A stretch of DNA of 64,000 bases from positions 127,379-191,378 of the forward strand of contig NW_006768852.1 of the NCBI RefSeq assembly GCF_000204055.1, read 5' to 3'. The notes below the pieces were generated by a model. The model saw only the letters and a list, made by a program, of their open reading frames with translations. It was not told where the DNA came from and made no database searches. Below are positions 4,052 to 46,906 of the stretch, piece after piece. Made by a program: the position numbers and the translations under genes. The stretch is from Melampsora larici-populina 98AG31. Taxonomy: Eukaryota > Basidiomycota > Pucciniomycetes > Pucciniales > Melampsoraceae. Numbering within the stretch: position 1 is the stretch's first letter; every line of letters starts with the position of its first letter.

Positions 4052-4358
4052 GGTAGGTGAGGCTGGGCGTGTTGGTCTGGAGCAAAAAAAAATGTTGATG
4101 AAGGTCTCACAACAGATGGGAGTGGGCTTCTGTCAGCTTGATTTAAGCATATTATGCTTCCGCAGCCCAGAATTTCCAAAATATGCTCATATGCAGTGTG
4201 ATTGGCTCTTGTTGTAAGCATATTTCACGAATTTTGATGATTTCTAATGTTTTAACCATTATGCATCAAGGGTTTTGGTTTTGGCAGGGAGCGCACGTAT
4301 ACCAAAAAAAATCCCCAAAAACCCTATGCTTGTAGCGAGATATGCTTACTTCGAACTT

Positions 4359-4428
4359 GCTTACATCAAGAACCGACTGTATTGGTTTGGTGTAGTATAT
4401 CACGATATACGTATATTGAATCGTACCG
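4359..4428 (-). repeat. Right terminal inverted repeat of the pogo-like element
   Basis: This is the inverted partner of 1150-1216. The palindrome GTATATCACGATATAC lies at about 4393-4408. Further AAGCATATT-type motifs occur inward (about 4140-4225) and at the left end (1205-1290), giving a set of subterminal repeats. Confidence 0.75.
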
Positions 4429-4440
4429 AACGGGCCCTTA

Positions 4441-6138: not shown

Positions 6139-6372
6139 ATGCCAAAAGACAAACGATTGAAGCCAAAGCACTCAAAACCTACAAGTTCATCAAAAAAATA
6201 CACATGGATTCCAGCGGCAAACAATTGCACTATACGATGGACAGGCTTCGAGATGTCTGAAGAACGTGATTCAACCGCGGCACGACGGATGGCCCGATGC
6301 AAATATTGTCAGAAGATAATGCACGGGAAGCCTTCCTATCTTCAGGCCCATATGACCACTGAATGCAAATCA
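6139..6372 (+). pseudogene. hAT transposase, N-terminal part with BED-type zinc finger
   Basis: The frame opens at the ATG at 6139 (MPKDKRLKPK). It contains a BED-like zinc finger (CKYCQ...HMTTEC, about residues 55-76) preceded by a typical IRWTGFEMSE stretch. BED fingers bind the transposon ends. The frame is cut at the 12-bp duplication GAATGCAAATCA, where the LINE inserted, and resumes in frame at 12365-12376 on the far side. Read with the later fragments it forms one hAT gene with further damage. Confidence 0.85.
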
Positions 6373-6461
6373 GACCAACCAACAACATTCCAATCAACCA
6401 TTCATCGGTATCTTATCATTCGATCGAGATTGAAGCCAATAAACCCTCGAACCATCACCAT

Positions 6462-22161: not shown

Positions 22162-24074
22162 GTAGAACTCCTACGCAGTGTAGCGTAGGCTGAGCCGGAG
22201 AGGGGAAGAATCACCACTCAAGAGAGCGGATGAAACTACAGGCGCTGAGAAGCTGCCCTCGTCCTTCAAAATTGCTTTTGAATTTAAGATGAGACTTCTC
22301 TACTTTTCACTTCTTTGTCTTTTAAGGTTTCCCGAAGCCTAATTTACACTACGTGGTTGGATGCGCAGCTTCTGGCGGAGTCTAACGGTACCACACACAA
22401 CCCTACACGAGTTGATAGTGCGAGGATATGTAAGGTTGAAGTTGATTTGCAATGTCACAAATGTGAACTGCTGCTGTACAGGTCCGGAATGAATTCCAGA
22501 GCCCGACTTGACCCGGCCTCGACTTGTATCAAGAGGCGGGTTTGTTGCTATTTTGAAGCCAGAGCCAACTTTTGATTTTGAATTAAAATAAATAAATAAA
22601 AAATAAAATTAAGACTCTTCGAACACCGAGCTCAGCAAAAAAAGAAAGATACAATTAAACACTCGATGACAATCAACTGAAAGTAAGCTCTTCCTTTGTC
22701 TCTGTTATCAAAGAAAATCTAACTAACACAACCAAAATATCTCATTTACTACACAGATTAACGGACACACTCGATTCTGTAAGACTTTTACAATAACACC
22801 AATACAATAACTCGAACGTACACAAAAGATTGACTTCACGATCAGACACACGGATTAACGGACACACTTCCACAAAAAGATGGATCCCCCCTCTCTCCTT
22901 ATCTCAAAGCCTCCCTTTTATATCTTTCTCTCGGATCCAAACCCACAACTCAACCATTCTAATCTCCACTCTCAGACCTGATCAATATCACTCAAACACT
23001 GTCCAACCGATTGTTTCAAAGTCATTTTAACCTTTATTTCAATATGTAAGTGCTTTCTCTGTCTTCTCATATTCGTTTTCTTTCTAATGCTCATCGTCTA
23101 AAACTGATTTCTCTGTCTATTCTTTTGATTTGCTCGTCATATAGTCATTTCTTTCCAATACCTCCACTTTCCTTATCACCCAATTCATCTATCAACACTA
23201 TCTCAAATTCGATCCCAGCCTCTTTCCAACTACAGCCTTCAAACTTCCACATCAATCTTCTTATCTCATATTTGATCACTATTATCACACACCATTTTTG
23301 ATCTTGAGGCTTAGTTTGATCTTGCATTTCAAGAAATAAGTTTATTCAATTCATCTCTGACTTCTTTGATTTCGCATCCCACTGACATTTGTCTAATTGT
23401 TTGTTTTAAGTTTGCACTCCAAAATCGATCCTTCTATCTAGTTAACCATTTCGATCTGGACCCTTCATTTTGATATCTTGAATCTAGAACATGTTCTTTT
23501 TAATCTTTCATGCCAGGTATGTGGTCACTCTTCAATCAATCTATAATCATATCATTTGAACTGACTGTACACTACCCTCTTTATCAATTGTATGGGCTTT
23601 TAGATCCCCAAAATCGAACCTCTTATGTATATGTCTTGTTAATTTCGATTTTGGCCTGTACTTTAGGTGTTTATTTAATGCAACTTGTTTTATTATTTAA
23701 AGCTTTCTTGTAGTTATGTTATCTATGTTTGCTATATTTATCTTCAAATGTATTTTGAGTTGGAATCAAATCATAGAAACCATAATTGATTGAAATGAAT
23801 ATTACTAATCATCTGATTGGGAGTGAATGTGCCATATTGAGAGAATTGATCTAATACTGAATCTGTTTTCTATGTGTTTCCTCTTATGAAGATTTTTTTG
23901 TTTGTTTGTAATTTAGAACATAGAAATTAATATATGTCTTGATATTGAATGTAACCAGATAAAAAAGATCTTTGAATAATCCAGGAAGTCTCAGGTGTAG
24001 TCCTTGAAAGAGATGTAAATTGTAGATGTTTTGTAAGATTGAAGATTGAACCCTTTTGACATTTTGATTTCCAC
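22162..24074. mobile_element. Uncharacterised 1.9-kb insert in the Ngaro-like RT gene
   Basis: It is flanked by AACGGT at 22156-22161 and 24075-24080. Keeping one copy restores the reading frame of the reverse transcriptase ORF (...DETVQHDNHV...), so this is an insertion with a 6-bp duplication. The ends are GTAGAACTCC and ...TTTCCAC, which pair only weakly. A CCTACGC-N6-GCGTAGG hairpin lies just inside the left end (about 22170-22189). I find no coding region; the small plus-strand frames (22315-22575, 22830-23301, 23510-23713) look random. The family is unknown. Confidence 0.65.
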
Positions 24075-26116: not shown

Positions 26117-29100
26117 ATGCTTTCCCCCCAAAAGAAGACTCGTTCAACCCGAAGGCACGTCTCCACGTGCCAGGCATTTGAATGTTTTGCTGCCCGCTTC
26201 GTTGACCCAGATGGGATCGATCGTCCAGGAGTAGAGCTGAGTCGAGAGGCCTTTGAAGCCCATCAACGCGCAGAACTACGACAGCACGTTCAAGTAGCCA
26301 GCAGGGCTGGACGCGATCCTTTACCCTCACCGCTCCCCCTTGGTCCTCGCTCTCAGACCGGTGAGACAAGTCAGGATGATCTCGCATCACACTTTGAAAG
26401 AGTAGGCCTGGATCCAACCAATTCTTCGGTATCATTTGGTCATGCGCCAAGTGCTCCTTTCAATGATCGGTTCAGCGCAACAACAACTACAAGATGTCCT
26501 GACTTGCCACCAGACGACTCGTCGTTAGCCGAAGGCATTGGTAGATCGGTGCCTTCTCCGTTAGCAGATGTTTCGATTGATCACCAGAATAACGACGAGC
26601 ACATCAATATTCCGGAGTCACCGCATGGTACAGGGTCGGCACAAGAATCTGGGATCGAAAGCTACAGCTGCGGTATGTCAATTCTTGATTATGATAGATG
26701 CAAAGATTTGAACATTCAATGTACTTACTGAAGTTAATGTTGACAGCACGATTTTTTGAGTTTAGCCTGGACCTCATCAACCCTTTACACTTGCATGCAT
26801 CATTGGTTGCAGCTCTCATGAATATTTTCGGCCATGTGTCATTGAGGAGTACTTCGTGGCTTCTAGATGTACAAAGAATCAATATTGAACTCTCTTTGAC
26901 ACATGGGCTGAGACCGAATTCCTCACCAGCTCAACTTTTGCCTTACGACGATGAAGTTCTACGCCGAATCCCACGGACGATCACAACGGTCTTTGGATGG
27001 CTACAGATCGATCCTACTCTTATATACATGAATTGCTGTCCATCATGCTTCGCTTTGTACCCTCTCGAAAGCGCCCCGCCCACATGTAATCACCGAATTT
27101 CTAGTATTCCTGGTGGTCCCCCAGAATCTACAGGATCCAATAATGAGCTATCTGAGAAGCTCTTGTCCGACTATACCCCTGACTTCACCGAACGTCTCTG
27201 TGGCGAACCTTTGTTACGGTTTTCTAGAGGCAATTCAATTGCTGTCCGACGCTACGCGTTTCAGAGTCTCAATGACTGGATTGCGCGATTGCTCTCGCGG
27301 CCTGGTATCAAGTCATTGCTTGACGAGTCTTTGGCAGACTCAGCCAAGCCGTTTGATCCAGATGATCCTGTACACGACATTCATCAAGCAAAGATCTGGA
27401 AAGATTTCCGAGACCCAGATGGCAACCAGTTTACATCTAAAAGTGGGAATCTTACCTTCGCGATGTTCGTTGATGGAATAAATCCGTTTGGAAATAAACA
27501 AAGTGGACACCACGTCTCAATCACGTTCATTGTGCTAGTATGCCTTACCTTACCTTTCCGGATTCGTTATCGACCAGAAAACGTGTTTTTAGTTGGTGTT
27601 GTCTCAGGACCACGCGAACCTTCTCTTGAGCAGATGAATTGGGTTTTGCGCCCAGTGGTAACTCAGCTTCAAGGTTTATGGAAAGACGGCCTACTGCTTT
27701 CACAAACTCATTCTCACAAAAAAGGTCGCCTCATCAGAGCTGCTCTCTTAATCTTCATAGCAGATCTACCTGCATTACGACGATCCCTTGGCTTTCCAAG
27801 TGCGAATGCAAACTTTTTCTGTTCGATGTGCCTGTTGACAAAGGCGCAGGCAAGAAACTTCGATTTTTCATCTTGGCCTCCGCGTACCACCTGCCAACAT
27901 AAAGAATGGGCATACTCAGCGCGAGATGCTGAAACCGTCAAAGAACGCGAAAAGATATTTAAAACCCACGGTGTACGGTATTCAGTTTTAGTAGATTTGG
28001 AGTATTGGGACATTGTGAACAATCATGTTGTAGACTCAATGCATAATCTGTTACTCGGACTACTGGCTTGGCACTGTCGGCGGTTCTGGTCAATGAAGGA
28101 GATAATAGATGAAGAAGATAGGACAACTTCAATCAGTACTGTTGAATTGTTGAATCTTCTGTCCGAGCATTCAAATCCACAATCACAAGCAAGATCCACC
28201 GAGCTTCCTGTGCCAACAGTTGATGAAGATGAAGATGAGAATATCAACAATATCCTGTTTTCAGAGAATACAGCTCCAAGTGATGATGATTTCAATCCTT
28301 TGGGAGAAGGGTGGGACGGCACATGGGAGCCTCCACCTGTTGACAAGATTATATTTGATGCGGCAATGCTCAAAGATATCAATGCACTACTTCCTCAGAT
28401 TCACATCCCCAGCTGGATCAAACGTGCACTACCGGTTTTGGGTAAAGCTTCATTTGGCAAACTGAAGGCTGATGAGTGGCGAAATCTATTCACCATTCAG
28501 TTACCTCTGATACTTATTCCAATGTGGTATGGTCATGATCATATAGAAACCTCGCTCCTCCAAAACTTCTGCCACTTAGTATCACTAGTCAACCTGGCGT
28601 TAAAGCGTGTGATGACATCTGATGTCATTTCATCATACCGCCATCACATCCATCAATATCTCAAAAGTTCATTCTTGCTCTTTGAGCATTGTCAACCAAC
28701 CTGTAACCATCACATGGCTGTTCATTTAGCTGACTGTCTTGAGAAAGCTGGTCCAGTTCGAGCTTGGTGGTCATTTCCCTACGAAAGGTTGATGGGGAGT
28801 ATCCTCAAAGGAAGTCACAATAATCATATTGGTGAGTGCGGCTTAATTTTTTGCACATTGGTCAAATTCTGAACTTCATGTGATGGTGCATTTTCAGGTG
28901 AACTTGAATTGACATTCATGAAGAATTTTTGTCGCGCGGGGAATCTTACCGCAATTCTTGAGGATGAAAAGCTTCCTGAAGCTCTCCATCCTTACATAGC
29001 TCGTTTGAAAAAACTATACGAGCCATCAGAAAAACTTCGAAGACAAGCATCAAACTCAAAGTTGGAGCCACTTGAGCCTATCATCTTAAAATCATTGACC

Positions 29101-29721: not shown

Positions 29722-32700
29722 TCAGCCCAATGACCTGACAATTTGGATCATATTTGAGAGGTCGAATTGAGGAGCAATTTCGAGTGCACTCCTTTCAAGA
29801 GGAGTTAATGTTTGAAGGTATTGTGACGAGTAACAGTCCATAGGAAGACCATGAGGGGCAGGGGTTTCCGCAATCCGAGCATTTGAGCATCTCAGTCGAG
29901 GTTGTGGAGGGCGTCCACTGCTTGCAGGAGAATGATTGTCGTTTTCGAGAGGGTTGTTTTGCATCAAGGATGATTTCCGGGGCTTAGGGATACTAGAGTC
30001 TAGCCGCGCTTTGTACAGATCGAGAAGGATAAAGATATATGTTAACTCGGAGCTGCGCCACGGCAGCTTTCGGATGTGACACGGGTTGAGATGTTGGTTG
30101 TGATCTTGACAATCCTCATGGTCCGTCTCGTAGTCACTACAAGCCACTTGAATGACAGCTGAAAGTGGCCACAAAGGCTTGTGTGGCAGGACAATGCGTT
30201 CACGAACTTTTTTTGTCTGTTAAGAAGTTTTGATTAGTCCGGTGAAAATCCAAGCAAAATGATTAAATGTGTGAGGGTGCACATAGCTCAGCCGAGCACG
30301 TCTTCGGACGGCACTCGCAGCGATTTTCTTTCGTGGCGCAGTCCAATTTTCTTGCTGATACCTTTATTTTCAATAAAATATTTCAGAGGATGATAGACTG
30401 GATGGTGAAAAAACGAGACCAGACACACCGTTTCATGAGAGATCGGACACGTGTATCCAAAAGCTTCTTGAGATACTTTCGGTTCTGTTCATCAAGTAAA
30501 ACACCAGCATACTCACCACACTCGACTAACTTGATGAAAATCCTGAAGGCAAGATCCCAAAGCCATTTATTGTCTGCAGAGGATGGGGATTTGGAGAAGT
30601 CAGGACGAAAGCATGATACTCCCACCGATCTCATCATTGTCCGCATTACAATAAGCTGTTGGGATGTTGCTTTGGGATGTCGCGGGCTGTTGTTGTCCGA
30701 GGGAGCAGAATCAGAACCGGAGGCGGGGGTCGGCTGAGTAGGAAAAAGACTCGGGTCAAAATTGTCAAGGTTGACATCAGTCTTCCAAGCCTGTTGATCT
30801 TCACACGTTGCTGGGGGTGGTAGGTTCATTGAATGATTGATCAGCCCTAAGAGGGTGTCTATATGTAATCGCATCCATTCCTATATAGTCGCAATCATTA
30901 GCTTGGCTGTTCTGTATCCGGAAAAAAATTGATCACTTACTGCGGACCTTCCTCCTCTTGTTTTTTTTCCAGGTGAGGGACTTGGTTTGACGGCTGCAGA
31001 TTGACTTACAATCTGTGTTAGAACTTTGAGCTCATTAGTCACAATGTCGAGTCTATGATTAGTTTCGGCTAATGAGTGTTTGAGTTGATCTAACAGTGGC
31101 ATTCAAGAGCTTCAGAAAATGTATGCAATTATCTACAAGGTATGTGCATGTAACTTACAATATTTCATGAGCAGTTGGGGCTCATCTACATCTTCCTGGT
31201 AAGCGCTTTGGCCGGCAGGAGTGAATTCATTGATGTTTGGCGAATTGCTGAAGGGGTTAGGTGAAGACTGGGGTTGTGTGGGTGGTCGTGAAGATGGATG
31301 AGAGGCATCTGATTGATGTTCAGGAGATTTGGGAGGCAGATCGTCCTCAATCACTGATTGGTCAAGAACATCGCTGTGAGCACTCGAAGATGTATCGTCG
31401 TCTGGTGGAAGCCAATCGTCATCCAACATATCTACTGGGTTTGGATTGACGGTGGGCAGGAGTTTGACGGTTGGGTTGGGACGAGGGTACAGAAATCGTC
31501 TGTGTTCTAAACTAGGAAGGCTATCGTGGTCCCCACTGCTATCAAAAGTCTTAATTGTCTTTGATGGCCCACCTGATCAACAAAAAGATTCACATCAGAA
31601 ACGCACTGAGGCTACAGAGGAGTTGTGGATGTACTCACTCGGCTCTCCAAATGCACTAACTTCTACGGATACAGAAGGTGAGGGTGAATGGGCTCTTTCT
31701 TTACCCTTGCCTCCTCCTTGTTTTTTGCTGATTGGTGAGGTCGATTGGTGAGGTGCCGAGACATTGGCTATTCGGGCATTCCCTGCGGTATTCTTTGTGG
31801 AAAGTTGTAGACCGGGTAATGGGGGGATCACAACCTGTGCGGTGATGGTAGGTGTTTGGGCTGGAGATGTTGAGTGGGGTGCAATAGTCATCATTCCGTC
31901 ATCTGTGTGCGTGAACAGAAATTGGGTCAGCTGCTCTTAGAAAAATTACAAAAAAAATTGTAACAATCCTACCTCGACTTTCAACATGAGACACGGGTGT
32001 GGCTGATAGAAGGGCAACAGTGCAGGCGTGTATATTCAATTTGATTGATTCATCGAAGGACCGTCAACAGTCAATTGACAAACCTTCAGACCTAGGGAAA
32101 GAGCCCGCTTGTGCCTCTGGAACAGCAAACCGAAACATGTGGCGGGGTATGCGAACTGCTCGAATCGGTTCCATGCTTGAGCGTAGTATGAGTGTATTGA
32201 AAGAAAAAAATGAGACCAGACTTACTTAGATCACAATTCTGGTTGCACATAACCACGAGTTTGTGTTTGGGCAAGGCCTTACCATCCAAGCCTATTCCTT
32301 CAACAATATGGATCAGTTCTGAGCACTCGAGATTGTTGAAGTCATAATCTGCTGGCGCGACTGGATCATTGGGCACTGTGGTATTCTGAGCACCAATGGT
32401 TTCGTGCAGAGGAGGTCCCACGGTGTTGGTTTCCTGGGCTTCAAGAACCTTTGACCTTACTTCGTGAGTCGAACGGATCCTTGAGGTGTTGGTCAGCCTG
32501 GGCCTCTTACTGTTGACATACTTATCAAGTAATTCGATTAACCGGCCTCGGGACGTCTTGGGTCCAACTCGGACTCCCACATTTTCAAGACGATTCGGCA
32601 AATTATCGGACTGTTCCGTTTTCTGGTGTCCTATAATGCAAGAGTAAATTGAGGAGTAAGATACTAGGGAGTGATTGAGTGAGAAATAGATAAGACACGG

Positions 32701-33262
32701 GTTAAGCGGCAAATGCCGATACAATTTCAGATTCGAAAGAGAAAACGAGTGTATCAGTTAAGGCGTAGCTATAGCTTACCATCTGCTGGGCTGGTATGTG
32801 AAGGGGTATTTTCAAGACGATTCGGCAAATTATCGGACTGTTCCGTTTTCTGGTGTCCTATAATGCCAGAGTAAATGGAGGAGTAAGATACGAGGGAGTG
32901 ATTGAGTGAGAAATAGATAAGACACGGGTTAAGCGGCAAATGCCAATACAATTTCAGATTCGAAAGAGAAAACGAGTGTATCATTTAAGGCGTAGCTATA
33001 GCTTACCATCTGCTGGGCTGGTAGGTGAAGGGGTGCGCTTCTTACGTTTCTTGCGGCCAACGTTTGTTATTGAATCACTGAGAGATGGTTCATCGGGTGG
33101 TGGGCGTGGCGGTAAGTTTTGGGATTGTGATGATGAAGGCGCAAGAGCTGATGAATCTAAATTTTGTCCTGGTGTGAGATTCGCTGCTGCTGGGTCTTGT
33201 GCAAGTGAGGATGAGGGTTTTCTTCGCAAGCTTCGACGGAGAGGGTTCTTCTTTGGGGGCAT
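29722..33262 (-). CDS. CACTA accessory gene 1, multi-exon, function unknown
   Basis: Starts MPPKKNPLRRSLRRKP at 33262. Exons I can place are 33262-33007, 32857-32780 and 32630-32226. Further coding blocks lie near 32160-31980, 31890-31600, 31560-31140, 31100-30950, 30890-30385 and 30210-29722. The protein starts basic and Pro/Ser-rich. A SAP-like stretch is possible (LIHIVEGIGLDGKALPKHKL). A coiled-coil segment follows (MPLLDQLKHSLAETNHRLDI), then ordered parts around WLWDLAFRIFIKLVECGEYA and ACSDYETDHEDC...LPWRSSELTYIFILLDLYK. Similar tails occur in large families of hypothetical rust proteins as I recall. It may be a DNA-binding partner of the transposase, comparable to plant TnpA. Exon borders below 32226 are approximate. 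Confidence 0.6.
32581..33034 (-). repeat. 227-bp tandem duplication that doubles one exon of accessory gene 1
   Basis: 32581-32807 and 32808-33034 are near-identical direct repeats. Each holds the 3' end of one exon (...SPADG), a 149-bp intron and the start of the next exon (GHQKTEQSDNLPNRLEN). The result is an extra 78-nt exon (32857-32780) in phase 1-1, so the frame is kept. Confidence 0.85.
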
Positions 33263-34683: not shown

Positions 34684-35202
34684 ATGAGTAAGAAGGCCAA
34701 ACGACCAGCTGGAGGCCCCTCTCCACTCACTTCGCCGAGCACGGCCACTGGAATGCTTTCTCAAATTAAGGCGACCACTTCCCCAAGCCCGGTCTCTGTG
34801 GTGATTGCCGAAATGCAGCAGAACCGGTCCACTGATACTTCGGCTCCTCCTCCGGCCCCTACTAACCAAGGACAACAGGCACCACCACCACCCCCTGATA
34901 AAAATCGTTCAAATCCTTTATGGTTCAGTGTGCAAACCTTACCCTCAGGACTTCGCGTTTTCCTTGACCACGACTACATGATCAAGAAAAAGGGGATCAA
35001 AAAGCTCCACTTCTATCAAATCCTTTATCACTTCAACCCGGCTACCACGGCTCGCCCAACTGACCTGAAAGCGAAATTAACCAGTGACTTTGAGACTAGC
35101 TTGTTGCCTCAACTCCAGCCGTTTGTGACACCTGCTCCGCCGACCGCTATGGACACCGACAAAGAAGACTTCGACCCCACAAGCCCTAATACCACCAAAC
35201 GT
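34684..35202 (+). pseudogene. CACTA accessory gene 2, 5' part, cut by a retrotransposon
   Basis: Starts MSKKAKRPAGGPSPLT. The first ~75 residues are Pro/Ser/Thr-rich; an ordered region follows (SNPLWFSVQTLPSGLRVFLD, KGIKKLHFYQILYHFNPATT). The frame is interrupted at the duplication ending ...TTKR. Across the Ty3/gypsy element it continues in frame at 46417 (MLKDVLIRRAP). I do not recognise the protein as a whole; LHFYQILYHF...TDLKAKL has the look of a small helical DNA-binding fold such as SAP, but that is weak. Confidence 0.7.
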
Positions 35203-36821
35203 TGTAGTATTTAAAGCTCAACAAGAGCTTTACAACACCTAAGAAGGGATAATCTACTATGTGTAATATAGTAGAAGTTGCCTAAAGACTGCCTTCTTCA
35301 AAGAAACCAGCACAAGGGCACTTGCTGACCACTTTGTGATAACAGAGAAAAGGATAAAAGGCACCAGAGAAATAAAGCAATACTGTTGTTAAGTATTATT
35401 CCCAGATTTTAAGCGCAAAAAAGTCACACACTATGTTTATTACTAGCAATACTGTTGTAAGTATTATTCCCAATTAGACTTGTAGTCTTTAACACACGTA
35501 AATAAATTTCTCCTTGCTTTTGAAGGGGCGGATTTAAGTGATCTTAGTACAAATATAGTAAATAAATGATGATTTATAACACTACAACAAAGGTATAAGA
35601 TGCAGAAAAGGGTGCTACAATCCCAAAATCATCAAGGAGTACTTATATCCACATGTAACAATCTTTACAACAGTCAACAGCCTCAAAAACCAATCAAATC
35701 CGCCTAAATAACCCTAAAAACCATGTAATGACGCAATGTAATGATCTTGTTACTAATGTATGATGTAATTTTCACAGCCAAAAGTGATCAATGACGCAAT
35801 GATGTAATGTACAGCACTTCTTAAGATGAATACAGGTGATTTTTTCCTTGTAAACTAGCTGAAACCCAATTTTTGAGATTACGAATTTTTTCAGATGTGC
35901 TCCAATTTTTGATTACTAAAGTGCATCTTGTAGCCCACGTGTTACTGATCATTTCTGACACCTATAAGACCTACTTCTGATGAGTGATGAGTAAGATATT
36001 GAGTTGTGAAGTTAAGGTTTTTGGTGTTACATGTGTCTTGTGACTGTAAATTCGAGATTCACACCAATTTCTTATTTCCCTTATAACTTTTTACATAAAC
36101 CTCCGTTACTAATGATTCAAAGGTTGTACATTATGTAATACACTCTTCTGCGTTGAATGAGCCATCTACCAACTTATTCTGACGTCATTTGACATATGTA
36201 ATTAGCTGAAAACCTCCATTTTCGACGATTTTCACCTATTTTCTTCACTTTTCACAGCTGCTACTCCCTTTTCCTTGCTCATGTAATATGACATCATCTT
36301 CTATAACCTTAAAAATCCCGGAAAATCCTCTTGGCAACCTTAAATTCCATCACTACCACCATTACATATGTAAACTACACGCCTAACCCTTGTTTACCAA
36401 CTTCGAAAAAGTACCTTTCTGCTAATAACCTCTGTTTCCCCTTATCAACCTTGAATATTAAAATTGTTCCTGTATAATAAACTGTTGTTCTTTCATATTC
36501 TAACCTTATAAAACCCATAACTTAATTGTAAATAAGCTAAAAACCATTTTCCAACTTTTACACCTATATTTTCGAATTTTTCTTATCTTTTCTTTTTCTG
36601 TCTTTTTGTAATAACTTTGTAAGTAAACTATGTTGATCTTAATAATAATTTTGAAATAAGATGACATAATAATGAGCTAATAAGTATACATAAGCCTCTA
36701 AGAGCTTCAATTGATCTGAAAACCTGAATTTCGAATTCTCTGCTATATTGAAGTTTGCTAATAAACTGGTAAAGTAAAGATGATTAATTTTTTTGCTTAA
36801 TATCATAAATAGATCACCACA
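35203..36821 (-). repeat. Ty3/gypsy 3' LTR (left copy)
   Basis: 1619 bp, direct repeat of 44799-46416. Differences visible by eye include GAGAAAAGGATAAAAGG versus GAGAAATAGATAAGG and single-base indels in homopolymers. On the minus strand this is the 3' LTR. Confidence 0.93.
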
Positions 36822-36845
36822 TCCTCCTCTTCTTCCCAAACTGCC
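36822..36845 (-). other. Polypurine tract beside the 3' LTR
   Basis: On the minus strand the sequence just before the LTR reads GGGAAGAAGAGGAGGA, a typical polypurine primer for plus-strand DNA synthesis. Confidence 0.8.
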
Positions 36846-36933
36846 CCCAGTTTACCAATCAATAAAATAAATCATCTACTCCATACATTTGAATTTTTCC
36901 TCAAATCTTTAAATATCCTTCTTAATTATAAAT

Positions 36934-37835
36934 ATGGTTATCACTACACCTCCATCTGTTGCTTCACCTTGTGTTCAATGCCGCATGGTCCATTCTTCCT
37001 GCTTATATCAAATAAATCCTGCGTGTCAAAGATGCCATAACCTTGGTATAATATGCTGTGAGTCTTTTCTTTCATTTCTTTTACTATAATAATCTTCAAT
37101 GTTTTTATTTATATTAATTAATTTTATTCCTTTTATACTTTCTTTTATAATTTTCTTTTAATTCTAGCCTATCCAGCAGCGCCTTCTACCAATATTTCAC
37201 CTGTACCTGGTTCTCCTGCTTACAATTTCCCACCTCCAAACACGCCTAATACACCTATCAGAGTCAATTTCTTAAATCCTTATAATATTAATCAACACAA
37301 TACACCTTCAGCTCCTGATTCTCCAAACCCTTCAATAACTTCATCAATTGAAACCAATTTTACTACTTCTGACCCCTTTTTCGAAAAATTATATGAACAT
37401 AACTTAGCTTGGAAACTTGACTATATTACTTATCAAAATTGGCATTCTTGGAGGATCTTGGATGATACTATAAGACAGTTTAAAGAAGCTGGATATGAAG
37501 TACCCAACATTACTAATAATCATTATCATCTTTTGCGTGCCCATTCTATTGCTGAATATGTTTCCAGAAAGGGTGAGGATGAAAATTTAACTGTATCCAC
37601 CTTTATTCCATTTATTAATCATGCTGAGCGTGCAAATGCTGCTTTATTATCCCCTTATAATACTCCTTCTACTAATCCTCCTAATACTGAACTTCCAATA
37701 GTTAATAATGATCCACCCGTAATTCCTTCTGTTAATTCCCCATATACTGATTATAATTATTCTGAATATACTCCTACCATTTATGAACTTCCCAGTTGGC
37801 TTGATCCACGCCTTTACCCATCTTCTCCTTCTTAA
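36934..37835 (+). CDS. Zn(II)2Cys6 zinc-cluster protein encoded antisense inside the retrotransposon, two exons, 263 aa
   Basis: Exon 1 is 36934-37057; a 110-bp intron (GTGAGT...TTCTAG, 37058-37167) follows; exon 2 is 37168-37835. The 792 nt keep one frame. Residues ~13-41 read CVQCRMVHSSC...ACQRCHNLGIIC, that is C-x2-C-x6-C-x7-C-x2-C-x6-C, which fits the fungal binuclear zinc cluster. A Pro/Asn/Ser-rich linker follows, then a compact region (FFEKLYEHNLAWKLDYITYQ, WRILDDTIRQFKEAGYEVPN) and a low-complexity tail ending DPRLYPSSPS. Zinc-cluster proteins are DNA-binding regulators in fungi. The gene is convergent with gag-pol, 162 bp from its stop, and lies within the retrotransposon's internal region. 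It may regulate the element or its host. The intron and cluster are clear; the function is inferred. Confidence 0.8.
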
Positions 37836-37997
37836 TATTACTATTTACTATTAAATGTACATTGATAACTAGTGAAACATATCCATTATTCTTATTCTTT
37901 ATTATATTTTCAAATTCTTTTCTTCTATTCTTTTAGTCTTATTATATATTTTTATATTTAGTTATTTGAAATTAATATTATTATATACTTTAAGTAA

Positions 37998-40900
37998 TTA
38001 TAATTGCGCCTCTTCCTCATCAGTGACCTCCTCCTCTTCTTCTGCTGTTGGAATAATACCCCTTGGATAAAATCTTTTGACGTGTTCTGCTGCATATCTT
38101 CTTGACAATTCTACACCATTTAACTCTTCTAAAATATAAGATCCTCCCACGTGTTGTTTAATAATTCTAAAAGGCCCATTCCATCTATTCTTGAATAATT
38201 TTCCCCATTGAAATTCCAAAATCTTATTATAAGTTAATACTAAATCTCCTTCTTTTAATGGTTTCCTCATTCTATGCGCATTTTTCTTATCCCAATATAT
38301 AATCCCTTGAACTCTTGCTTTCATCATTTTATCATATGCCTTATTAATAATTTCTTCTCTACATAATAATTGTTCCATCCTTGCTTTTAATAATTCTTCT
38401 CCCGTGGTAATTCTTGCCCAATCAATACCTAAAAATGTCCCAGCCTCTAAATCAATTGGTAATACTGCTACTTGATTAAATATCATCTCATAAGGAGACA
38501 TTCCAGTTGTTCTTTTCGTGGAAATTCTATCAGCAAATAAGACTTGAGGTAAAAATGCTTCCCAAGATGTTCCACTTTCATCACTTAATTTAATTAATGC
38601 GCCTTTAATATCCTTATGTCCTCTTTCAACCATTCCTTCTGCTTGAGGCCAATAAGCTGTTGATTCCACCACTTTTGATCCAGCCATAGTAACTGCTTCT
38701 CTAAATATTCCTTTAAATTCTGATCCACCATCAACTGTAAAACATTTCACGGACCCATATCTCATTATCCATTCTTTTGTAATAAATTTGGCTACTGCTG
38801 TAGCTGTTAATTTCTTTAAAGGTGCTGCTTCTACCCACCCAGATAAATCATCCCTTGCAATTATAGCATAATCATGACTTCCAGCTTTGATATGAATAGC
38901 ATCCAAACTGACTCTTCCAAACACGGTATTTTCACCTGTAGCCCTTCCAACTTCTTTTTCTTTCTTTGAACTTTTCTTTTGACATTCTTCACATGATACT
39001 ACCCAATTTCTAACTGATTCTTTCATTTCAGGCCACCAAAATCTTATTAAACACCTTCTGTAAGTCTCTTCAATTCCTCTATGTCCCAATTCCTCGTGTA
39101 ACTTCTTTAATATATGTTCTTGTCCTTCAATTCTTGATATTACCAATCTTCCTTGAGGTACTCCTCTTTTCTTTAACCTGCTACCATCCACGTAAAATAA
39201 AGGTACTTTACTCTTAATCTTTTGAAATTCAGCATCTTCACAATCTTTTGGTCTTATTAAAGTTGTTAAATATTCCTCCAAATTACGCCAAATTCCTTCT
39301 TGACTCCACATAGAATTTTCTTCAAGTATAACCTCCTCTTCTTCTAATTCTGAACTTCCCACCTGTAATTGAAAACTTTCATATACTTTAATTTCTTTCT
39401 TATCTTCATCAAAACTTTCTGCTTCATCTGATTCACTTCCAGGTTCCCTTCTTGATAATCCATCAGGCATTCCAAAGCTCTTTCCATGTTTATGAACAAG
39501 ATCAAATGAAAATAATTGTATGTAAGCTACCCATCTTGTCATAGCTGCATTTGGTAAACTAGGCGCATTAATCATTTGAATTAAAGCCTTTGCATCTACT
39601 TGCAATTCAAAATGTTGACCCCATAATTTTGTTTTAAACTTCCTCATAATCTTTGCCACGCCACATAATTCCAATTTAGGTTGAGAGTATCTTGATTCAA
39701 CTTCTGTAAATACTTCTGACTCATAAAACACGGGCCTTATTTCTCCTTCATCATTTTCTTGCATCAAAACTCCTCCAGCTGCAATATAACTTGAATCCAC
39801 GGCCAATATAATTTTATTTGCTCCTTCACTATAATCCAAAGCTGCCAATACAATATCTTCTCCCACTATCTTCTTTAATATATTAAAAGCCTTATCACAA
39901 TCTTGATTCCATTCCCAGTCCACATTCATTCTTGTAAGTCTTCTTAAAGGTGCAGCAAGGTGTCCAAAATTAGGAATAAACATCCTGACATAAATACACG
40001 TGCCCAAGAATCCAAGAACTTGAGTTTTATTTGTTGGAATTGGCCAAGTCTGAATTTTATTCTTCTTTTTAATTGATACACTTCTTCCTTTTCCACTTAC
40101 TATATGTCCAACAATTTCCAAAGCTGGTACACACACGGCAAATTTCTTTCCAGACACTGTTAACCCTGCTTCTTCAATTCTGAATAATATTCTTTCCAAT
40201 ATAATAGCATACTCCCAAATAAATTTCCTTCTACCATTATTTTCTTTCAATACTTCATTATTATAATCACTTTCAGGTCCTTTAATTCCTCCATCATCAA
40301 TAAATATTCCTGCATGTTTAGGAAGTTCTTCTTGCAATATCCACATCATTTGCGCCTGATAAACTGCTACAGAATTAGTTGCACCTTGAGGTAATCTTGT
40401 CAATTGCAATCTTCCCAAAGGAGTTTCAAAAGTTGTTAATGGTCTTGAAACTTGCGCCAATTCCCTTTCATCATATCCTCCCATAATATCCCCTAATCCA
40501 TAACAAGCTCTACCAGAGAAAGATTCCACGAATTCTTCAGGTGAAGGAGGTATTCCAGCATCTTTAATAGTTACTTTATTTAATACTTGAAGGTCATGTA
40601 CTATTCTTAATTTACCATCACCTTTAAGCACGCAGAAAACTGGACTAGAATAACTTGAAGAGGATTGTTCATAAAGACCAGTCTTAATTCTTTGTCTTAC
40701 TAATTCAATATAATCATTTCTAATTGCTGTAGGTATTGGGATTGGTCTAATTTGCCAAGGTTCATGATCAATTACTGGAACCACGTAAGGTAATCCATAA
40801 GAGTGCTTCAATAAACCCCTTTCCTCTTCACAATAAGCCACAGCTCCTTCTCTTAAGACTAATATAAAAAGAAATAGTTTCCATTCTTCATCTGAAAGCC

Positions 40901-43900
40901 ATCCTGAAGGTCCAAAATTACACTGCTTCAACCTTTCCACTGTGGTCTTATCAGTTTCAATAAATTCTGGAGGGTTTGGAATTAAAGGAGTCTTATAAGG
41001 ATCTCTTGATAAAGCTGGTCTTTGAAGAGGAAAATTTAAATATTGAGGCATAGGCGCATTAACAGGTTTAACTTTTCTTTCAACTGATTTATATTTGGCG
41101 CCAAAACTTCTATATTCAATTCCTCCTTGATTTTCAAATATATCTTCATTTTCCAAGTTCATAATGATATTAATTTCATCAATTAAAGTTTGCTCCATAT
41201 GGATTTCATTTTCAAACTTAAGTCCATATATTTCATCTTCAATTAATTCCTCACGTAATTCTTCAAATAATTTATTTCCTCCATCATTTTCCAACATAAA
41301 GCCTTGTCTTTCTTCAATTGAAACATTTAATTTCCTTTCCCACGTGCCTTTATCAGGTTCACACAATCTTATCTTCATCCATACACCTCTACTATCTTTT
41401 AAAGTCATTCTTTCACCAACATCTTCTTCAAAATTCAACTGAGCTTCAAAATCAAAGAGGAAAGGCCTTCCAAGTAAGATAGGCGTGTCATCATCTTCTG
41501 CCACAAAGAAATGAACTATTCCATCAATATTGGCGCCTACATGAATCTTGACATTCTCAGCAATACCACAAAGAGGTGTCCTATGTCCACTAATTCCTCT
41601 CACGCCACTTTTTAAATTAACCAAGGTCTGAACTGGTAATAATTGCATAATTTTTAAAGGAATAATATTGATTTGAGAGCCTGAATCAATTAAAGCTTTA
41701 ACCTTCATCTTCCCAATTGTAATTTCTACGTGTCCCAAAGGTGTTGAATAAAGAGTTGCTTGAGGAACATTAACTTCCAAAGAGGAATCTGATTCTGTTT
41801 CATATTCAAAGTCAGATAATATAGAATTGTTTGCAACTGAAGCCATGGTTGTTTGATTTAAATTAAGCCTTCTTTTTGAAACCCATTTCTTAACTTCATC
41901 AGAGATTACAGGTGAGATGGTGCATAATTCTTTAATTTGAAGTTCAATAGCACCATTCATAATCTTTTCCACAACCTCAGAAACTATCTTTGCCTTATTT
42001 GCAAATGCTGGTAATCCTTTGCTTAATCTGTCCTTCACAAAATCCCCGTCATTTGGAATAATATATGTAGGTTTCTTTGTTTGAGCTGAACCATCTTCAC
42101 TCTTATTACTTTCTTCATCTTTATGAATTCTCCTTAAACTTCCATCCAATATATCATGCTGATCTTGAACATTATTATCTTCATCCACGTCCATAGCATC
42201 AATTTCCTCTATCATATCATTAATTGTAACTTTCTTCTTCTTCTTTAATTTGTTTAATACATCTCCTTCATCCACAGCTTTCCCACTCCTTGTCTTCATT
42301 TCCACGCCATATAATTTAGTCCCAGCTCCAGCTTTAACTTCAGTACACTTCTTAGTAAATTCAGGTACAGACCATTCTTCTAAAACTCCACAATTAGTTT
42401 TTAATTCATGTACCTTATCCTTTCCTTCCTCTCTAGTTAAAACACTCGTGGGAATTACAGGTGGTACTACTGCTGTATTTGTTACAGGTGGATTGTTTAC
42501 AGGTTGATTATTCTGCTGTTGTTGTTGCATATTATTACGTGCCATAGCATTTGCTTGATCTTCAGAGTACTCAATAACTTGTTGTCTAATTCCTTCATTA
42601 GCCTTCTTATACATCCTTTCATTACTTCTAGGTAAGAATAAACCATCCATTCTATCTTGAAGTAATCCAGCTTGCTTATCCTGAATAACCCATTTACACC
42701 TTCCCATACTATGTCCCTCCATGTTACAATAAGAACAAAATGGCATAGTATTCTGTTGAGGCATAAAGTTTTGATTATTAATGGCGGGAATTTGATTATT
42801 ATTATTGGGTAAAGGATTATTAACAGGTCTATTATTATTATTGTTATTAAACCTGTTAAAATTTGAATTATTAGGCGCTCTGTTGGGTTGAAAGTTATTA
42901 TTAAATTGTTGAGGCCTTGAGTTATTATTTGGCGGATATTGAACATTGTTCCTTTGATTTGGAACAACTTGTTGATGAATTTGATTCTGTAAAGCATTTG
43001 AAATTGGAATCTGAAAGTTATAAGAATTATTTAAAGGTAACTGTAAAGGATTTTGGACGTGATTTATTTGTAAATTCTTTAAATCAGTACATAATATTTC
43101 CATTTGTTGATTTGCTTTAGCCTGCATTCCCCCAATCTTTGCAACTTTACTACTAGTATCCTTTTGAATAACTTCACTTTTAACTCCAGCAATTTCATTC
43201 TTGATGGTATATTTCTCTTCTCCAATATCTTCAAATACCAAAAGCACCTCTTCTTCAATATAATGATCAACCACCTTCTTTAATTTCTCTAAGTTAGGTA
43301 ATTTATATCTTCCACTTGATACTTTCTTCATCATCCTCTTCTTAAATTTCTTCTGAAGTTCATCTGAAAAAGCCTCATAGAAATATCTTGCTACTTCTTC
43401 ATCACTTGAATCCACGTAATCATGTCTAGCCAAGTATTGATGAATTTTATCAAAGTTAATTCTAAATGTTTGATATTCACTTTTACACGTAACACCTCCA
43501 TTTCTCATTGTTCTTTCAGATAAAGTTCTTAAGTGATCAATAGAATATCTTGGCTGTTCCGTGGTAGTCTGATATCTGGCAATTAATTGCTCCTTGACCT
43601 TCTTCCAACTCCATTCACCAACTCCCCAACCTTCCATATCACGTATTTCCTCCTTAAGTTCTTCTCCAACAACAAAACTGGTAATTTGCCTGACCATATC
43701 CAATTCTGAGGCGCCATTTGCTTCAGCTTGACTATGATAATTGATAATAAATTTCTTAACATTTCCTCCAACTTCAAATCTAACACTTGTATCAGAATTA
43801 TCAATTTTCCGTGGTTTAACATGACTCCTACTTCTCTCATTTCCTTCTTCCTCTTCACTTTCTTCTGAAGTTGAGCTTGAATCATCACTTGAGCTGCTTG

Positions 43901-44429
43901 AGGCGCTTGAATCTCCATCACTTTCTTCTTCCTTAATAACCTCCTTCTTCCTACTTATCTTCTTTCCTTTTCCCTTCTTAACTACCTTAATAACTTCCTT
44001 AACTCTTTCCTTCTTCCCTTTTTCTTCCTTAAGTCTTATTAAATTAATTATATCCGCCATTTCTCTTTCTCTTCTTAAATAATGTTGTTGTTGATTAATA
44101 AACTGTTGTTGCCAATCAGGTTCTTCCTCGTGGTCTGAGGGTAATAATGTTTCTTGTTCTCTAAATCCAGTAAATGCTGAAGGTGGAATTGGATCCTCAG
44201 AAGTTGATTCTTCACGTTGTTTTCCACGTACAGTTGATCCTGAAGCAGGTCCTGGTGGTGGTGGTAAAGAGCCAGAGGGTAAAGATGTTGAATAATTCAC
44301 AGGATTTTCTAAAGCATAAGTTCTACTACTACGTGGAGTTCTTTTATAATGAGAAGTTGGTGGTAATTCTAATTCTGAATCCCCTTCTTCTCCTCCTTCT
44401 TGATCATGAATTTGAATGATTGAAGACAT
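37998..44429 (-). CDS. Ty3/gypsy Gag-Pol polyprotein, 2143 aa, single ORF
   Basis: Gag comes first, with a charged N-terminus and a low-complexity Asn/Gln stretch (residues ~480-560), then the zinc knuckle CSYCNMEGHSMGRC. An aspartic protease shows KALIDSGSQINIIP. Reverse transcriptase has SSPVFCVLKGDGKLRIVHDL, TRLPQGATNS and the active site IFIDDGGIKG. RNase H has ILAVDSSYIAAGGVL. Integrase has the HHCC finger (HEELGHRG...CEECQKK), D-D-E core positions at SLDAIHI, FTVDGGSEF and AEGMVERGHKDI, and a C-terminal GPFRIIKQHVGGSYIL fold. All domains are present in one frame with no stop, so Gag and Pol are made as one protein and cut by the protease. Confidence 0.95.
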   Translation of the reverse strand: MSSIIQIHDQEGGEEGDSELELPPTSHYKRTPRSSRTYALENPVNYSTSLPSGSLPPPPGPASGSTVRGKQREESTSEDPIPPSAFTGFREQETLLPSDHEEEPDWQQQFINQQQHYLRREREMADIINLIRLKEEKGKKERVKEVIKVVKKGKGKKISRKKEVIKEEESDGDSSASSSSSDDSSSTSEESEEEEGNERSRSHVKPRKIDNSDTSVRFEVGGNVKKFIINYHSQAEANGASELDMVRQITSFVVGEELKEEIRDMEGWGVGEWSWKKVKEQLIARYQTTTEQPRYSIDHLRTLSERTMRNGGVTCKSEYQTFRINFDKIHQYLARHDYVDSSDEEVARYFYEAFSDELQKKFKKRMMKKVSSGRYKLPNLEKLKKVVDHYIEEEVLLVFEDIGEEKYTIKNEIAGVKSEVIQKDTSSKVAKIGGMQAKANQQMEILCTDLKNLQINHVQNPLQLPLNNSYNFQIPISNALQNQIHQQVVPNQRNNVQYPPNNNSRPQQFNNNFQPNRAPNNSNFNRFNNNNNNRPVNNPLPNNNNQIPAINNQNFMPQQNTMPFCSYCNMEGHSMGRCKWVIQDKQAGLLQDRMDGLFLPRSNERMYKKANEGIRQQVIEYSEDQANAMARNNMQQQQQNNQPVNNPPVTNTAVVPPVIPTSVLTREEGKDKVHELKTNCGVLEEWSVPEFTKKCTEVKAGAGTKLYGVEMKTRSGKAVDEGDVLNKLKKKKKVTINDMIEEIDAMDVDEDNNVQDQHDILDGSLRRIHKDEESNKSEDGSAQTKKPTYIIPNDGDFVKDRLSKGLPAFANKAKIVSEVVEKIMNGAIELQIKELCTISPVISDEVKKWVSKRRLNLNQTTMASVANNSILSDFEYETESDSSLEVNVPQATLYSTPLGHVEITIGKMKVKALIDSGSQINIIPLKIMQLLPVQTLVNLKSGVRGISGHRTPLCGIAENVKIHVGANIDGIVHFFVAEDDDTPILLGRPFLFDFEAQLNFEEDVGERMTLKDSRGVWMKIRLCEPDKGTWERKLNVSIEERQGFMLENDGGNKLFEELREELIEDEIYGLKFENEIHMEQTLIDEINIIMNLENEDIFENQGGIEYRSFGAKYKSVERKVKPVNAPMPQYLNFPLQRPALSRDPYKTPLIPNPPEFIETDKTTVERLKQCNFGPSGWLSDEEWKLFLFILVLREGAVAYCEEERGLLKHSYGLPYVVPVIDHEPWQIRPIPIPTAIRNDYIELVRQRIKTGLYEQSSSSYSSPVFCVLKGDGKLRIVHDLQVLNKVTIKDAGIPPSPEEFVESFSGRACYGLGDIMGGYDERELAQVSRPLTTFETPLGRLQLTRLPQGATNSVAVYQAQMMWILQEELPKHAGIFIDDGGIKGPESDYNNEVLKENNGRRKFIWEYAIILERILFRIEEAGLTVSGKKFAVCVPALEIVGHIVSGKGRSVSIKKKNKIQTWPIPTNKTQVLGFLGTCIYVRMFIPNFGHLAAPLRRLTRMNVDWEWNQDCDKAFNILKKIVGEDIVLAALDYSEGANKIILAVDSSYIAAGGVLMQENDEGEIRPVFYESEVFTEVESRYSQPKLELCGVAKIMRKFKTKLWGQHFELQVDAKALIQMINAPSLPNAAMTRWVAYIQLFSFDLVHKHGKSFGMPDGLSRREPGSESDEAESFDEDKKEIKVYESFQLQVGSSELEEEEVILEENSMWSQEGIWRNLEEYLTTLIRPKDCEDAEFQKIKSKVPLFYVDGSRLKKRGVPQGRLVISRIEGQEHILKKLHEELGHRGIEETYRRCLIRFWWPEMKESVRNWVVSCEECQKKSSKKEKEVGRATGENTVFGRVSLDAIHIKAGSHDYAIIARDDLSGWVEAAPLKKLTATAVAKFITKEWIMRYGSVKCFTVDGGSEFKGIFREAVTMAGSKVVESTAYWPQAEGMVERGHKDIKGALIKLSDESGTSWEAFLPQVLFADRISTKRTTGMSPYEMIFNQVAVLPIDLEAGTFLGIDWARITTGEELLKARMEQLLCREEIINKAYDKMMKARVQGIIYWDKKNAHRMRKPLKEGDLVLTYNKILEFQWGKLFKNRWNGPFRIIKQHVGGSYILEELNGVELSRRYAAEHVKRFYPRGIIPTAEEEEEVTDEEEAQL

Positions 44430-44777
44430 GATATTGATTTTAATTATTATAAAATGATATTATAAAATAAAGAAACTCGAAATATTGATAATTTTGAAAG
44501 TTATAATGAATTAAAAGTGAATATATGCGTGGTTTTTAAGTTATATTCTTTCTTTTAAAGATTGATTATTGTTATTTAATATGTTATTAGTTGATATTGA
44601 ATTTTATTAATTGAATTTTGTTGATATTTGTTGAATATAATTTTCTTTCGAAATGATGAGTTGTATTATTATTAATTTGATTATTGATGATTTAATAATA
44701 AATTGTTGATGTTTTAAGATAATAATTAGGGAAATTATTAAATATAATTGACGGATCTTGCTTGTATAAAGTAAAGA
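44430..44777 (-). other. Ty3/gypsy leader between primer-binding site and gag
   Basis: About 350 bp of very AT-rich sequence (many ATTATTG/TTGATAT motifs) upstream of the gag start. No ORF. It probably contains the packaging signal. Confidence 0.6.
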
Positions 44778-44798
44778 GCCCCAGTGGAGTCACCAATA
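44778..44798 (-). other. Primer-binding site beside the 5' LTR
   Basis: On the minus strand TTGGTGACTCCACTGGGG begins three bases after the LTR end, the expected place for tRNA priming. I do not assign the tRNA. Confidence 0.7.
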
Positions 44799-46416
44799 TG
44801 TAGTATTTAAAGCTCAACAAGAGCTTTACAACACCTAAGAAGGGATAATCTACTACGTGTAATATAGTAGAAGTTGCCTAAAGACTGCCTTCTTCAAAGA
44901 AACCAGCACAAGGGCACTTGCTGACCACTTTGTGATAACAGAGAAATAGATAAGGCACCAGAGAAATAAAGCAATACTGTTGTTAAGTATTATTCCCAGA
45001 TTTTAAGCGCAAAAAAGTCACACACTATGTTTATTACTAGCAATACTGTTGTAAGTATTATTCCCAATTAGACTTGTAGTCTTTAACACACGTAAATAAA
45101 TTTCTCCTTGCTTTGAAGGGGCGGATTTAAGTGATCTTAGTACAAATATAGTAAATAAATGATGATTTATAACACTACAACAAAGGTATAAGATGCAGAA
45201 AAGGGCGCTACAATCCCAAATTCATCAAGGAGTACTTATATCCAAATGTAACAATCTTTACAACAGTCAACAGCCTCAAAAAACCAATCAAATCCGCCTA
45301 AATAACCCTAAAAACCATGTAATGACGCAATGTAATGATCTTGTTACTAATGTATGATGTAATTTTCACAGCCAAAAGTGATCAATGACGCAATGATGTA
45401 ATGTACAGCACTTCTTAAGATGAATACAGGTGATTTTTTCCTTGTAAACTAGCTGAAACCCAATTTTTGAGATTACGATTTTTTTTCAGATGTGCTCCAA
45501 TTTTTGATTACTAAAGTGCATCTTGTAGCCCACGTGTTACTGATCATTTCTGACACCTATAAGACCTACTTCTGATGAGTGATGAGTAAGATATTGAGTT
45601 GTGAAGTTAAGGTTTTTGGTGTTACATGTGTCTTGTGACTGTAAATTCGAGATTCACACCAATTTCTTATTTCCCTTATAACTTTTTACATACACCTCCG
45701 TTACTAATGATTCAAAGGTTGTACATTATGTAATCCACTCTTCTGCGTTGAATGAGCCATCTACCAACTTATTCTGACGTCATTTGACATATGTAATTAG
45801 CTGAAAACCTCCATTTTCGACGATTTTCACCTATTTTCTTCACTTTTCACAGCTGCTACTCCCTTTTCCTTGATCATGTAATATGACATCATCTTCTATA
45901 ACCTTAAAAATCCCGGAAAATCCTCTTGGCAACCTTAAATTCCATCACTACCACCATTACATATGTAAACTACACGCCTAACCCTTGTTTACCAACTTCG
46001 AAAAAGTACCTTTCTGCTAATAACCTCTGTTTCCCCTTATCAACCTTGAATAATAAAATTGTTCCTGTATAATAAACTGTTGTTCTTTCATATTCTAACC
46101 TTATAAAACCCATAACTTAATTATAAATAAGCTAAAAACCATTTTCCAACTTTTACACCTATATTTTCGAATTTTTCTTATCTTTTCTTTTTCTGTCTTT
46201 TTGTAATAACTTTGTAAGTAAACTATGTTGATCTTAATAATAATTTTGAAATAAGATGACATAATAATGAGCTAATAAGTATACATAAGCCTCTAAGAGC
46301 TTCAATTGATCTGAAAACCTGAATTTCGAATTCTCTGCTATATTGAAGTTTGCTAATAAACTGGTAAAGTAAAGATGATTAATTTTTTTGCTTAATATCA
46401 TAAATAGATCACCACA
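44799..46416 (-). repeat. Ty3/gypsy 5' LTR (right copy)
   Basis: 1618 bp. On the minus strand it lies upstream of gag-pol and would supply the promoter. It reads TGTGGTG...CTACA in that orientation. Confidence 0.93.
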
Positions 46417-46906
46417 ACGTATGCTCAAAGATGTACTCATTCGCCGAGCCCCTGCCTTGCATATTCCTTCTGACTCCAAGATCGACGGGTTCCGCCGCCT
46501 TTACAAGCAACATGTCGATCCAGACCTCGTACTACCCAAATCACGAGAATGCACTGCAAAACCTCGTGTTGTGAAGCACGCGGGTCTCAAAACACTTACA
46601 ATCGAACACCTCCGCTTTGCTATACAATGCTATGCCCCTAATGTCTTCATTCACTCTGTGGGAATGACCCGTCCTATCTGTCTTGATTTATACATCAAGT
46701 CTGTCATGGAAGGCCCAGTCGAACCAGGTACTTTAATTGAGGGATTTCACTATTCCGTGATTGATATTTGATTCCATTTAGAGATATCCGACTTTGATTT
46801 TTCTTAGTCTTGCTCCCTGAAATTATGGACCCCCTCATGATTGTGGTTTCATCTTCATATTGATGTTCTTTCTCTTTTCACAACCCCAGCAGTCCCACTT
46901 GCTTGA
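46417..46906 (+). pseudogene. CACTA accessory gene 2, 3' part
   Basis: The frame resumes at the ACGT duplication: MLKDVLIRRAPALHIPSDSK, then FRRLYKQHVDP and LRFAIQCYAPNVFIH...CLDLYIKSV. An intron from about 46728 (GTACTT) to 46889 (CCCCAG) would give the end ...VEPAVPLA with a stop at 46904-46906; read straight through, the stop is at 46768-46770. The two segments LKDVLIRR...FRRLYKQHV and LRFAIQC...LDLYIKSV look like a repeated helix-extension-helix motif (SAP-like), which suggests DNA binding. This is an inference from pattern only. Confidence 0.65.

Follow-up and report, generated by a model that had tools for sequence, protein, structure and literature searches.

An 11.2-kb Ty3/gypsy long terminal repeat (LTR) retrotransposon of Melampsora larici-populina 98AG31, found at 35203-46416 on the minus strand of a 64,000-nucleotide stretch of contig NW_006768852.1 (the window, to which all positions refer), carries a second gene between its gag-pol stop codon and its 3' LTR. 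This gene has two exons, lies on the strand opposite gag-pol, and encodes a protein with the six-cysteine motif of Zn(II)2Cys6 proteins. Comparison of its copies across the genome (98.3 Mb in 243 contigs were searched) indicates that purifying selection has kept this antisense zinc-cluster gene intact.

The antisense gene and its predicted protein

The gene (Table 1) encodes 263 amino acids plus a stop codon, with cysteines at residues 13, 16, 23, 31, 34 and 41 (spacing x2-x6-x7-x2-x6). The U3 edge of the LTR is 112 bases away from its start codon, and 162 bases separate the end of exon 2 (37835) from the end of the gag-pol frame, the two genes being convergent. A preliminary description of this DNA, made from the letters alone, had claimed a two-exon Zn(II)2Cys6 gene antisense within a Ty3/gypsy element, with an intron splitting the codon right after the cluster, and had named a profile search as one check. 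Coordinates, spacing and phase were all borne out, exon 1 ending one base into the codon that follows the sixth cysteine, and the Pfam Zn_clus profile matched the window protein at 24.0 bits (E = 4.3e-5; cutoff 21). The six-cysteine pattern occurs once in the six frames of the window and never in 100 shuffles of the window in 500-base blocks. The sense strand of 36830-37997 has no stop-free stretch longer than 65 codons, showing that the constraint on the antisense gene described below is not borrowed from a sense gene.

Exon 2 gave no Pfam match above cutoff, and Pfam found no further regulator domain in the protein. Exon 2 holds the conserved core of the protein (residues about 95-200) and a C-terminal ending, LDP(R/S)L, found across families. 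Two predicted models in public protein records correspond to this gene: MELLADRAFT_86121 has the same spliced structure, with 263 aa that are 99% identical to the window protein, and MELLADRAFT_96288 (250 aa) is letter-identical to the spliced C9 copy, of family D below. A sequence search of the PDB with the antisense protein found nothing significant (best E 0.067, PUT3 at 9.1), an AlphaFold prediction from a seven-sequence alignment was unusable (mean predicted local distance difference test score 38), and no relative was confirmed in the viral and genome contig collections that we scanned. Protein searches placed relatives only in Melampsora and on two contigs of other sources. A 274-aa protein, P0003, on a 2277-base contig labelled as a Rickettsiales bacterium metagenome-assembled genome, is a relative of exon 2 with an N-terminus resembling intron read-through; this is likely a misbinned fungal contig.

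Copies, relatives and selection

A DNA search of the genome returned 36 matches to the antisense gene; protein searches returned 74 and 40 exon matches, which are copies of these element families, with only two degenerate stretches, both on C54, lacking gag-pol nearby (in one, a cysteine and the frame are lost). After setting aside split or fragmentary copies (L007, L014, L037, L038, L053, L054 and a split C10 copy) and repeats of places already counted (L001, L009-L013, L018, L033 and L047-L052), we aligned 27 distinct copies, six from the window's own subfamily (A) and 21 from a second one (B), whose protein is 89% identical to the window's. The intron is present in all 27 (GTRAGT...TAG, 102-122 bases). 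No intron-less copy was seen among them. This is what reverse transcription of sense RNA alone would give, and it fits the argument of the preliminary description that reverse transcription of the gag-pol transcript would preserve the intron. The frame is open from start to stop in 22 copies (5 of 6 in A, 17 of 21 in B), two of which are counted open despite small losses: L032 is without five codons near the end, and L030 has lost 15 bases of the cluster and one cysteine with them. The other five comprise L015 (one stop), L006 (broken, truncated 3' end), L035 and L036 (frameshifts) and L034 (frame break near the start and truncated end). All six cysteines are kept in 25 copies, L029 and L030 being the exceptions, and the 3' part of pol lies alongside in 25 (L006 and L036 are cut off before pol).

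Approached from the other side, a genome search with gag-pol gave 1162 candidates, of which 22 were scored; 12 of these are complete, spanning residues 1 to 2143 with no stop, and the antisense gene stands beside every one of the 12, in one case with a stop (C93) and in one with a lost cysteine (C26). Given the fraction scored, the gene may be absent from more distantly related gypsy families. The gene lies between pol and the 3' LTR, antisense, in most copies of its family, the position and frequency that define the aORF-3R category.

In two diverged families the gene sits at the same site and points the same way: C, represented by copies on C1 and C20 and a damaged one on C13, and D, represented by C9. 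Over its whole length, the gag-pol of C (C1 and C20) is 83% and that of D 68% identical to the window's. At only 47% (C) and 38% (D) protein identity, the antisense proteins of both keep the six cysteines, with a 13-residue middle gap that fits C-x2-C-x6-C-x(5-13)-C-x2-C-x6-C, and in both genes, as in A, a phase-1 intron comes right behind the codon for the last cysteine. The 3' part of pol accompanies the gene at all four places in C and D. In the D copy L043, a 1.9-kb stretch (3978-5912) with 448-base inverted ends (98%) lies between gag-pol and the antisense gene and is likely a nested DNA transposon.

The preliminary description had proposed that other copies and their ratio of nonsynonymous to synonymous substitution (dN/dS) would show whether the gene is maintained, and both outcomes favor it. 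By the Nei-Gojobori method, with the window's copy compared to three B copies only, dN/dS is 0.08-0.09 at a dS of 0.73-0.82; that is, the gene is under purifying selection. The corresponding values for the 3' part of pol, against two B copies, are higher (0.14 and 0.16), and that for the gag-pol of a frame-broken B copy is 0.22. Differences between the window and L008 fall 24, 20 and 83 at codon positions 1, 2 and 3. Toward C and D the ratio rises to 0.39 and 0.78 with synonymous sites near saturation, so that the strong selection signal is the one between A and B. This is also where the antisense protein is conserved like the other proteins of the element, a further mark of the aORF-3R category; toward C and D it is less conserved than gag-pol. 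Among 5 A and 16 B copies (L006, L030, L032, L034, L035 and L036 left out), variants common to at least two copies are 32 silent and 3 replacement, and those found in a single copy comprise 30 silent changes, 27 replacements and 1 stop (Fisher p = 8e-5). By this contrast, selection acts on the copies that multiply and relaxes after insertion, which is the pattern that a gene used by the element itself would leave.

Candidate roles and their weighing

On balance, we lean toward the gene encoding a nuclear accessory protein of the element, one that would regulate the element's transcription through the U3 of its own LTRs. We infer that the gene is transcribed and its RNA spliced, that the protein enters the nucleus and binds DNA, that the LTR is its target, and in which direction it regulates. 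A transcript antisense to gag-pol would start in the 3' LTR or around the polypurine tract, be spliced in the nucleus and be translated into the Zn(II)2Cys6 protein; this would go back to the nucleus and act on element transcription through the U3, most likely checking copy number or activity, or tuning the time at which the LTR fires. The intron would persist because reverse transcription uses the sense genomic RNA only.

Sequence relations around the 3' end bear on a link between protein and U3. We built trees from 5 A, 7 B, 3 C (2 for the antisense gene) and 1 D copies. For the last 393 residues of pol the protein tree groups A with C (100/99) and rejects A with B (approximately unbiased test, p-AU 0.0006), and amino-acid quartets agree (A+C 15, A+B 2, A+D 5). 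For the antisense gene the amino-acid quartets are 14 for A+B and otherwise 0, and the nucleotide quartets 67 for A+B vs 7 and 13. The LTR is a mosaic: per 100 columns, the first 500 columns, on the U5 side, are 51-73% identical for A-B and 57-82% for A-C, and columns 500-1500 are 78-99% for A-B and 47-79% for A-C. The inner 1.2 kb is 86-88% identical between A and B (73% in one of four B copies), which exceeds the values for the intron (69-73%, gap-rich) and for the gene's four-fold sites (67 of 110), and U3-side identity is 63-64% for A-C. U3-side similarity thus tracks the antisense protein, whereas the gag-pol protein of A is nearer to C. These data fit either an exchange of 3' ends (gene plus U3) between lineages or a U3 that has been kept in step with the protein. 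Going further, gene and facing U3 could form a regulator-operator cassette, in which each family's zinc-cluster protein would recognize its own U3, the pair would be carried from one gag-pol lineage to another by template switching, and families in a common nucleus would keep separate control. We liken this arrangement to the immunity regions of temperate phages and consider it speculative and rather unlikely.

Candidate target sites were sought near and in the LTR. The inverted repeat beside the polypurine tract is perfect, is conserved across families and conforms to a palindrome pattern, AAACTGNCCCCAGTTTA, with 35 occurrences in the genome vs none for the reversed control; 32 are beside an antisense-gene match and one beside a copy cut off after the start. 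As the protein's target, AAACTG-N4-CAGTTT was rejected as unspecific, being kept beside the polypurine tract in two gag-bearing elements without the gene, and it is more likely a replication signal. These two elements (L056 2015 and L057 2058) have a 47-51% gag match, a similar polypurine tract and the palindrome; they lack the antisense gene, have no pol ahead of the tract and are probably non-autonomous relatives. A 24-base block identical in the LTRs of A, B and C, with no trace in D, can be taken as a lead; a run that long arose in 16 of 2000 block shuffles.

Several results weigh against a regulator acting through the U3. In Gal4-type proteins the loop between cysteines 2 and 3 contains lysines and arginines that contact DNA, and the equivalent loop of PUT3 (from its PDB sequence match) is CRKRHIKC; here it is CRMVHSSC in A, CRLEEVDC in C and CTPSQQSC in D. 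The cluster thus has few of the basic residues with which canonical members contact DNA, and because of the few in this first loop we file the protein as zinc-cluster-like. Zn_clus scores, 21.7 bits in B, fall to 11.8 bits each in C and D, under the cutoff of 21. The remaining two of the 35 palindromes are those in the elements without the gene, and CGG/CCG half-sites in the LTR, another candidate target, were rejected as not preferentially conserved (1 of 5). The match of U3 to protein may stem from 3'-end exchange rather than co-evolution, and the exchange itself is not clear-cut: pol nucleotide quartets are even (A+B 36-38, A+C 38-39; A+D 26-27), the antisense-gene tree rejects neither A+C (p-AU 0.24) nor A+B (0.40), A-B dS is alike in the antisense gene and the 3' part of pol (0.74-0.81 for the latter), and C and D are long branches, all of which weakens a claim of a clean module swap.

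The main rival is a selected accessory factor that is not a classical transcription factor, whose zinc cluster would serve structure or bind RNA or protein and which would help in nuclear import, integration-site choice or assembly. In its favor are the weak DNA-contact residues of A, C and D, the sub-threshold Zn_clus scores of C and D, the position of the conserved core outside the cluster, and the faster divergence between families of this protein than of gag-pol (identity to C 47% vs 83%, to D 38% vs 68%). Nonetheless the six cysteines have been kept through that divergence, and the sole recognizable domain is one known for DNA binding; we hold this explanation to be possible, if doubtful. 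The preliminary description had also raised a captured host gene; as cargo, such a zinc-cluster gene would act on host genes. Fungi have their own family of Zn(II)2Cys6 proteins and a spliceosomal intron is host-like, but the genome protein searches gave copies of these element families, 3' pol accompanies 25 of the 27 aligned copies and the four C and D places, exon 2 lacks a Pfam match above cutoff, and the relatives returned by the protein searches were confined to Melampsora and the two contigs of other sources. The presence of the gene in several diverged families implies that it is old, which also counts against capture, and we find this origin improbable.

That the antisense RNA rather than the protein matters, pairing with gag-pol RNA and triggering silencing, might be supposed from the convergent arrangement, in which 162 bases between the frames would let the transcripts overlap, and from a plant review whose available passages propose silencing for such open reading frames (ORFs) (PMC7264820). 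The dN/dS of 0.08-0.09 and the codon-position bias, in contrast, show selection on the protein, and make the RNA explanation very improbable. A chance ORF or annotation artifact, for which only the low Pfam scores in C and D speak, is refuted by the comparison of copies, dN/dS, the shared and private variants and the cysteine-pattern shuffles, and its likelihood is negligible.

The element and its relation to known systems

The element is a Ty3/gypsy LTR retrotransposon by its order of reverse transcriptase, RNase H and integrase, its LTRs and its target-site duplication. The Pfam matches in gag-pol are, in order, RVT_1 (1268-1443), RNase H (1539-1639) and Integrase_H2C2 (1770-1820); the integrase core, rve, is not in this list. 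Its two LTRs, both with TG...CA ends, are 98.95% identical (1621 aligned columns, 12 mismatches, 4 gaps), and the 4-bp duplication flanks both ends of the element. The polypurine-tract block is near-identical in those copies of B, C and D that were inspected. Rfam at gathering thresholds gave no match in 35000-46600.

Table 1. Positions of the antisense gene and of the retrotransposon parts around it
Feature	Position	Strand	Remarks
Target-site duplication, left copy	35199..35202		ACGT
3' LTR	35203..36821	-	1619 bases; U3 end at 36821; TG...CA ends
Polypurine tract	36822..36837	-	TCCTCCTCTTCTTCCC on + strand; adjoins 3' LTR; read from sequence
Inverted repeat	36838..36853		AAACTG-CCCC-CAGTTT; beside polypurine tract
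Antisense gene, exon 1	36934..37057	+	start codon and six-cysteine Zn(II)2Cys6 motif
Antisense gene, intron	37058..37167	+	phase 1; GTGAGT...TTCTAG; 110 bases
Antisense gene, exon 2	37168..37835	+	proline/asparagine-rich linkers round conserved core; C-terminal LDPRL motif; stop
gag-pol	37998..44429	-	single frame, 2143 aa; protease-like, reverse transcriptase, RNase H and integrase zinc-binding matches
Putative primer-binding site	44779..44795	-	TGGTGACTCCACTGGGG; position only, tRNA not assigned
5' LTR	44799..46416	-	1618 bases
Target-site duplication, right copy	46417..46420		ACGT

Elsewhere in the window, and judged by eye, two overlapping frames of 441 and 1317 aa (6363-11622) resemble ORF1 and ORF2 of a long interspersed nuclear element, a 513-aa frame (20629-22170) resembles a DIRS-like reverse transcriptase/RNase H, and a 724-aa frame (26698-28872) resembles a KDZ-type transposase. 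A tandem pair of 227-base repeats, 97% identical, lies at 32581-33034.

With regulators of the Gal4/PUT3 type the protein shares the six-cysteine spacing, and Zn_clus above cutoff in A and B; it differs in its few basic first-loop residues, in the absence of a further Pfam regulator domain and in being borne by a retrotransposon. HBZ of human T-cell leukemia virus type 1 (HTLV-1) is an antisense, spliced, nuclear regulator that starts near the 3' LTR; it is a bZIP protein of a vertebrate retrovirus, like our gene in layout only and not homologous to it. PMC7264820 notes an antisense promoter within the 3' LTR of HTLV. Closer in form are the plant LTR elements Retand, Grande (gene23) and RIRE2, which, in the passages available from PMC7264820 and PMC11963269, have antisense ORFs in the same place and orientation, between pol and the 3' LTR, and in most copies. 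Those passages describe products that are presumed to be regulatory, nuclear in the case of Grande and DNA-binding in that of Retand; antisense transcription is reported for Grande (PMC7264820, in part). As far as these descriptions go, and by description only, the plant cases differ in that no zinc cluster is named and Retand has TRP28; the word intron is absent from the main text of the Retand paper (PMC11963269). According to the same portion of PMC7264820, antisense-ORF products of LTR elements have no clear similarity to other proteins. Ty1 p22 is a retrotransposon-encoded protein that limits its own element (PMC4599808, seen in excerpt). It offers a possible functional parallel, with no homology claimed.

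Boty of Botrytis cinerea, for whose antisense gene brtn the source paper is reportedly that of Zhao et al. 2011, is likewise a fungal LTR element with an additional antisense gene. The excerpts through which brtn was compared, by description only, name no zinc cluster (PMC7264820, PMC8365987, PMC5987419). In the literature searched, which covered few subscription journals and several papers in part, we recognized no zinc-cluster case in LTR elements from the titles and abstract openings of the papers listed, and the words antisense and zinc are absent from the main text of a rust transposon paper (PMC12210899). A selected, intron-bearing zinc-cluster antisense gene in an LTR element thus appears, provisionally, to be new. 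Among antisense genes of LTR elements, the Melampsora gene is a second fungal case beside Boty brtn; with its recognizable domain, conserved intron, many intact copies and strong selection, in a sequenced fungus, it allows a direct test of whether such genes regulate their own elements.
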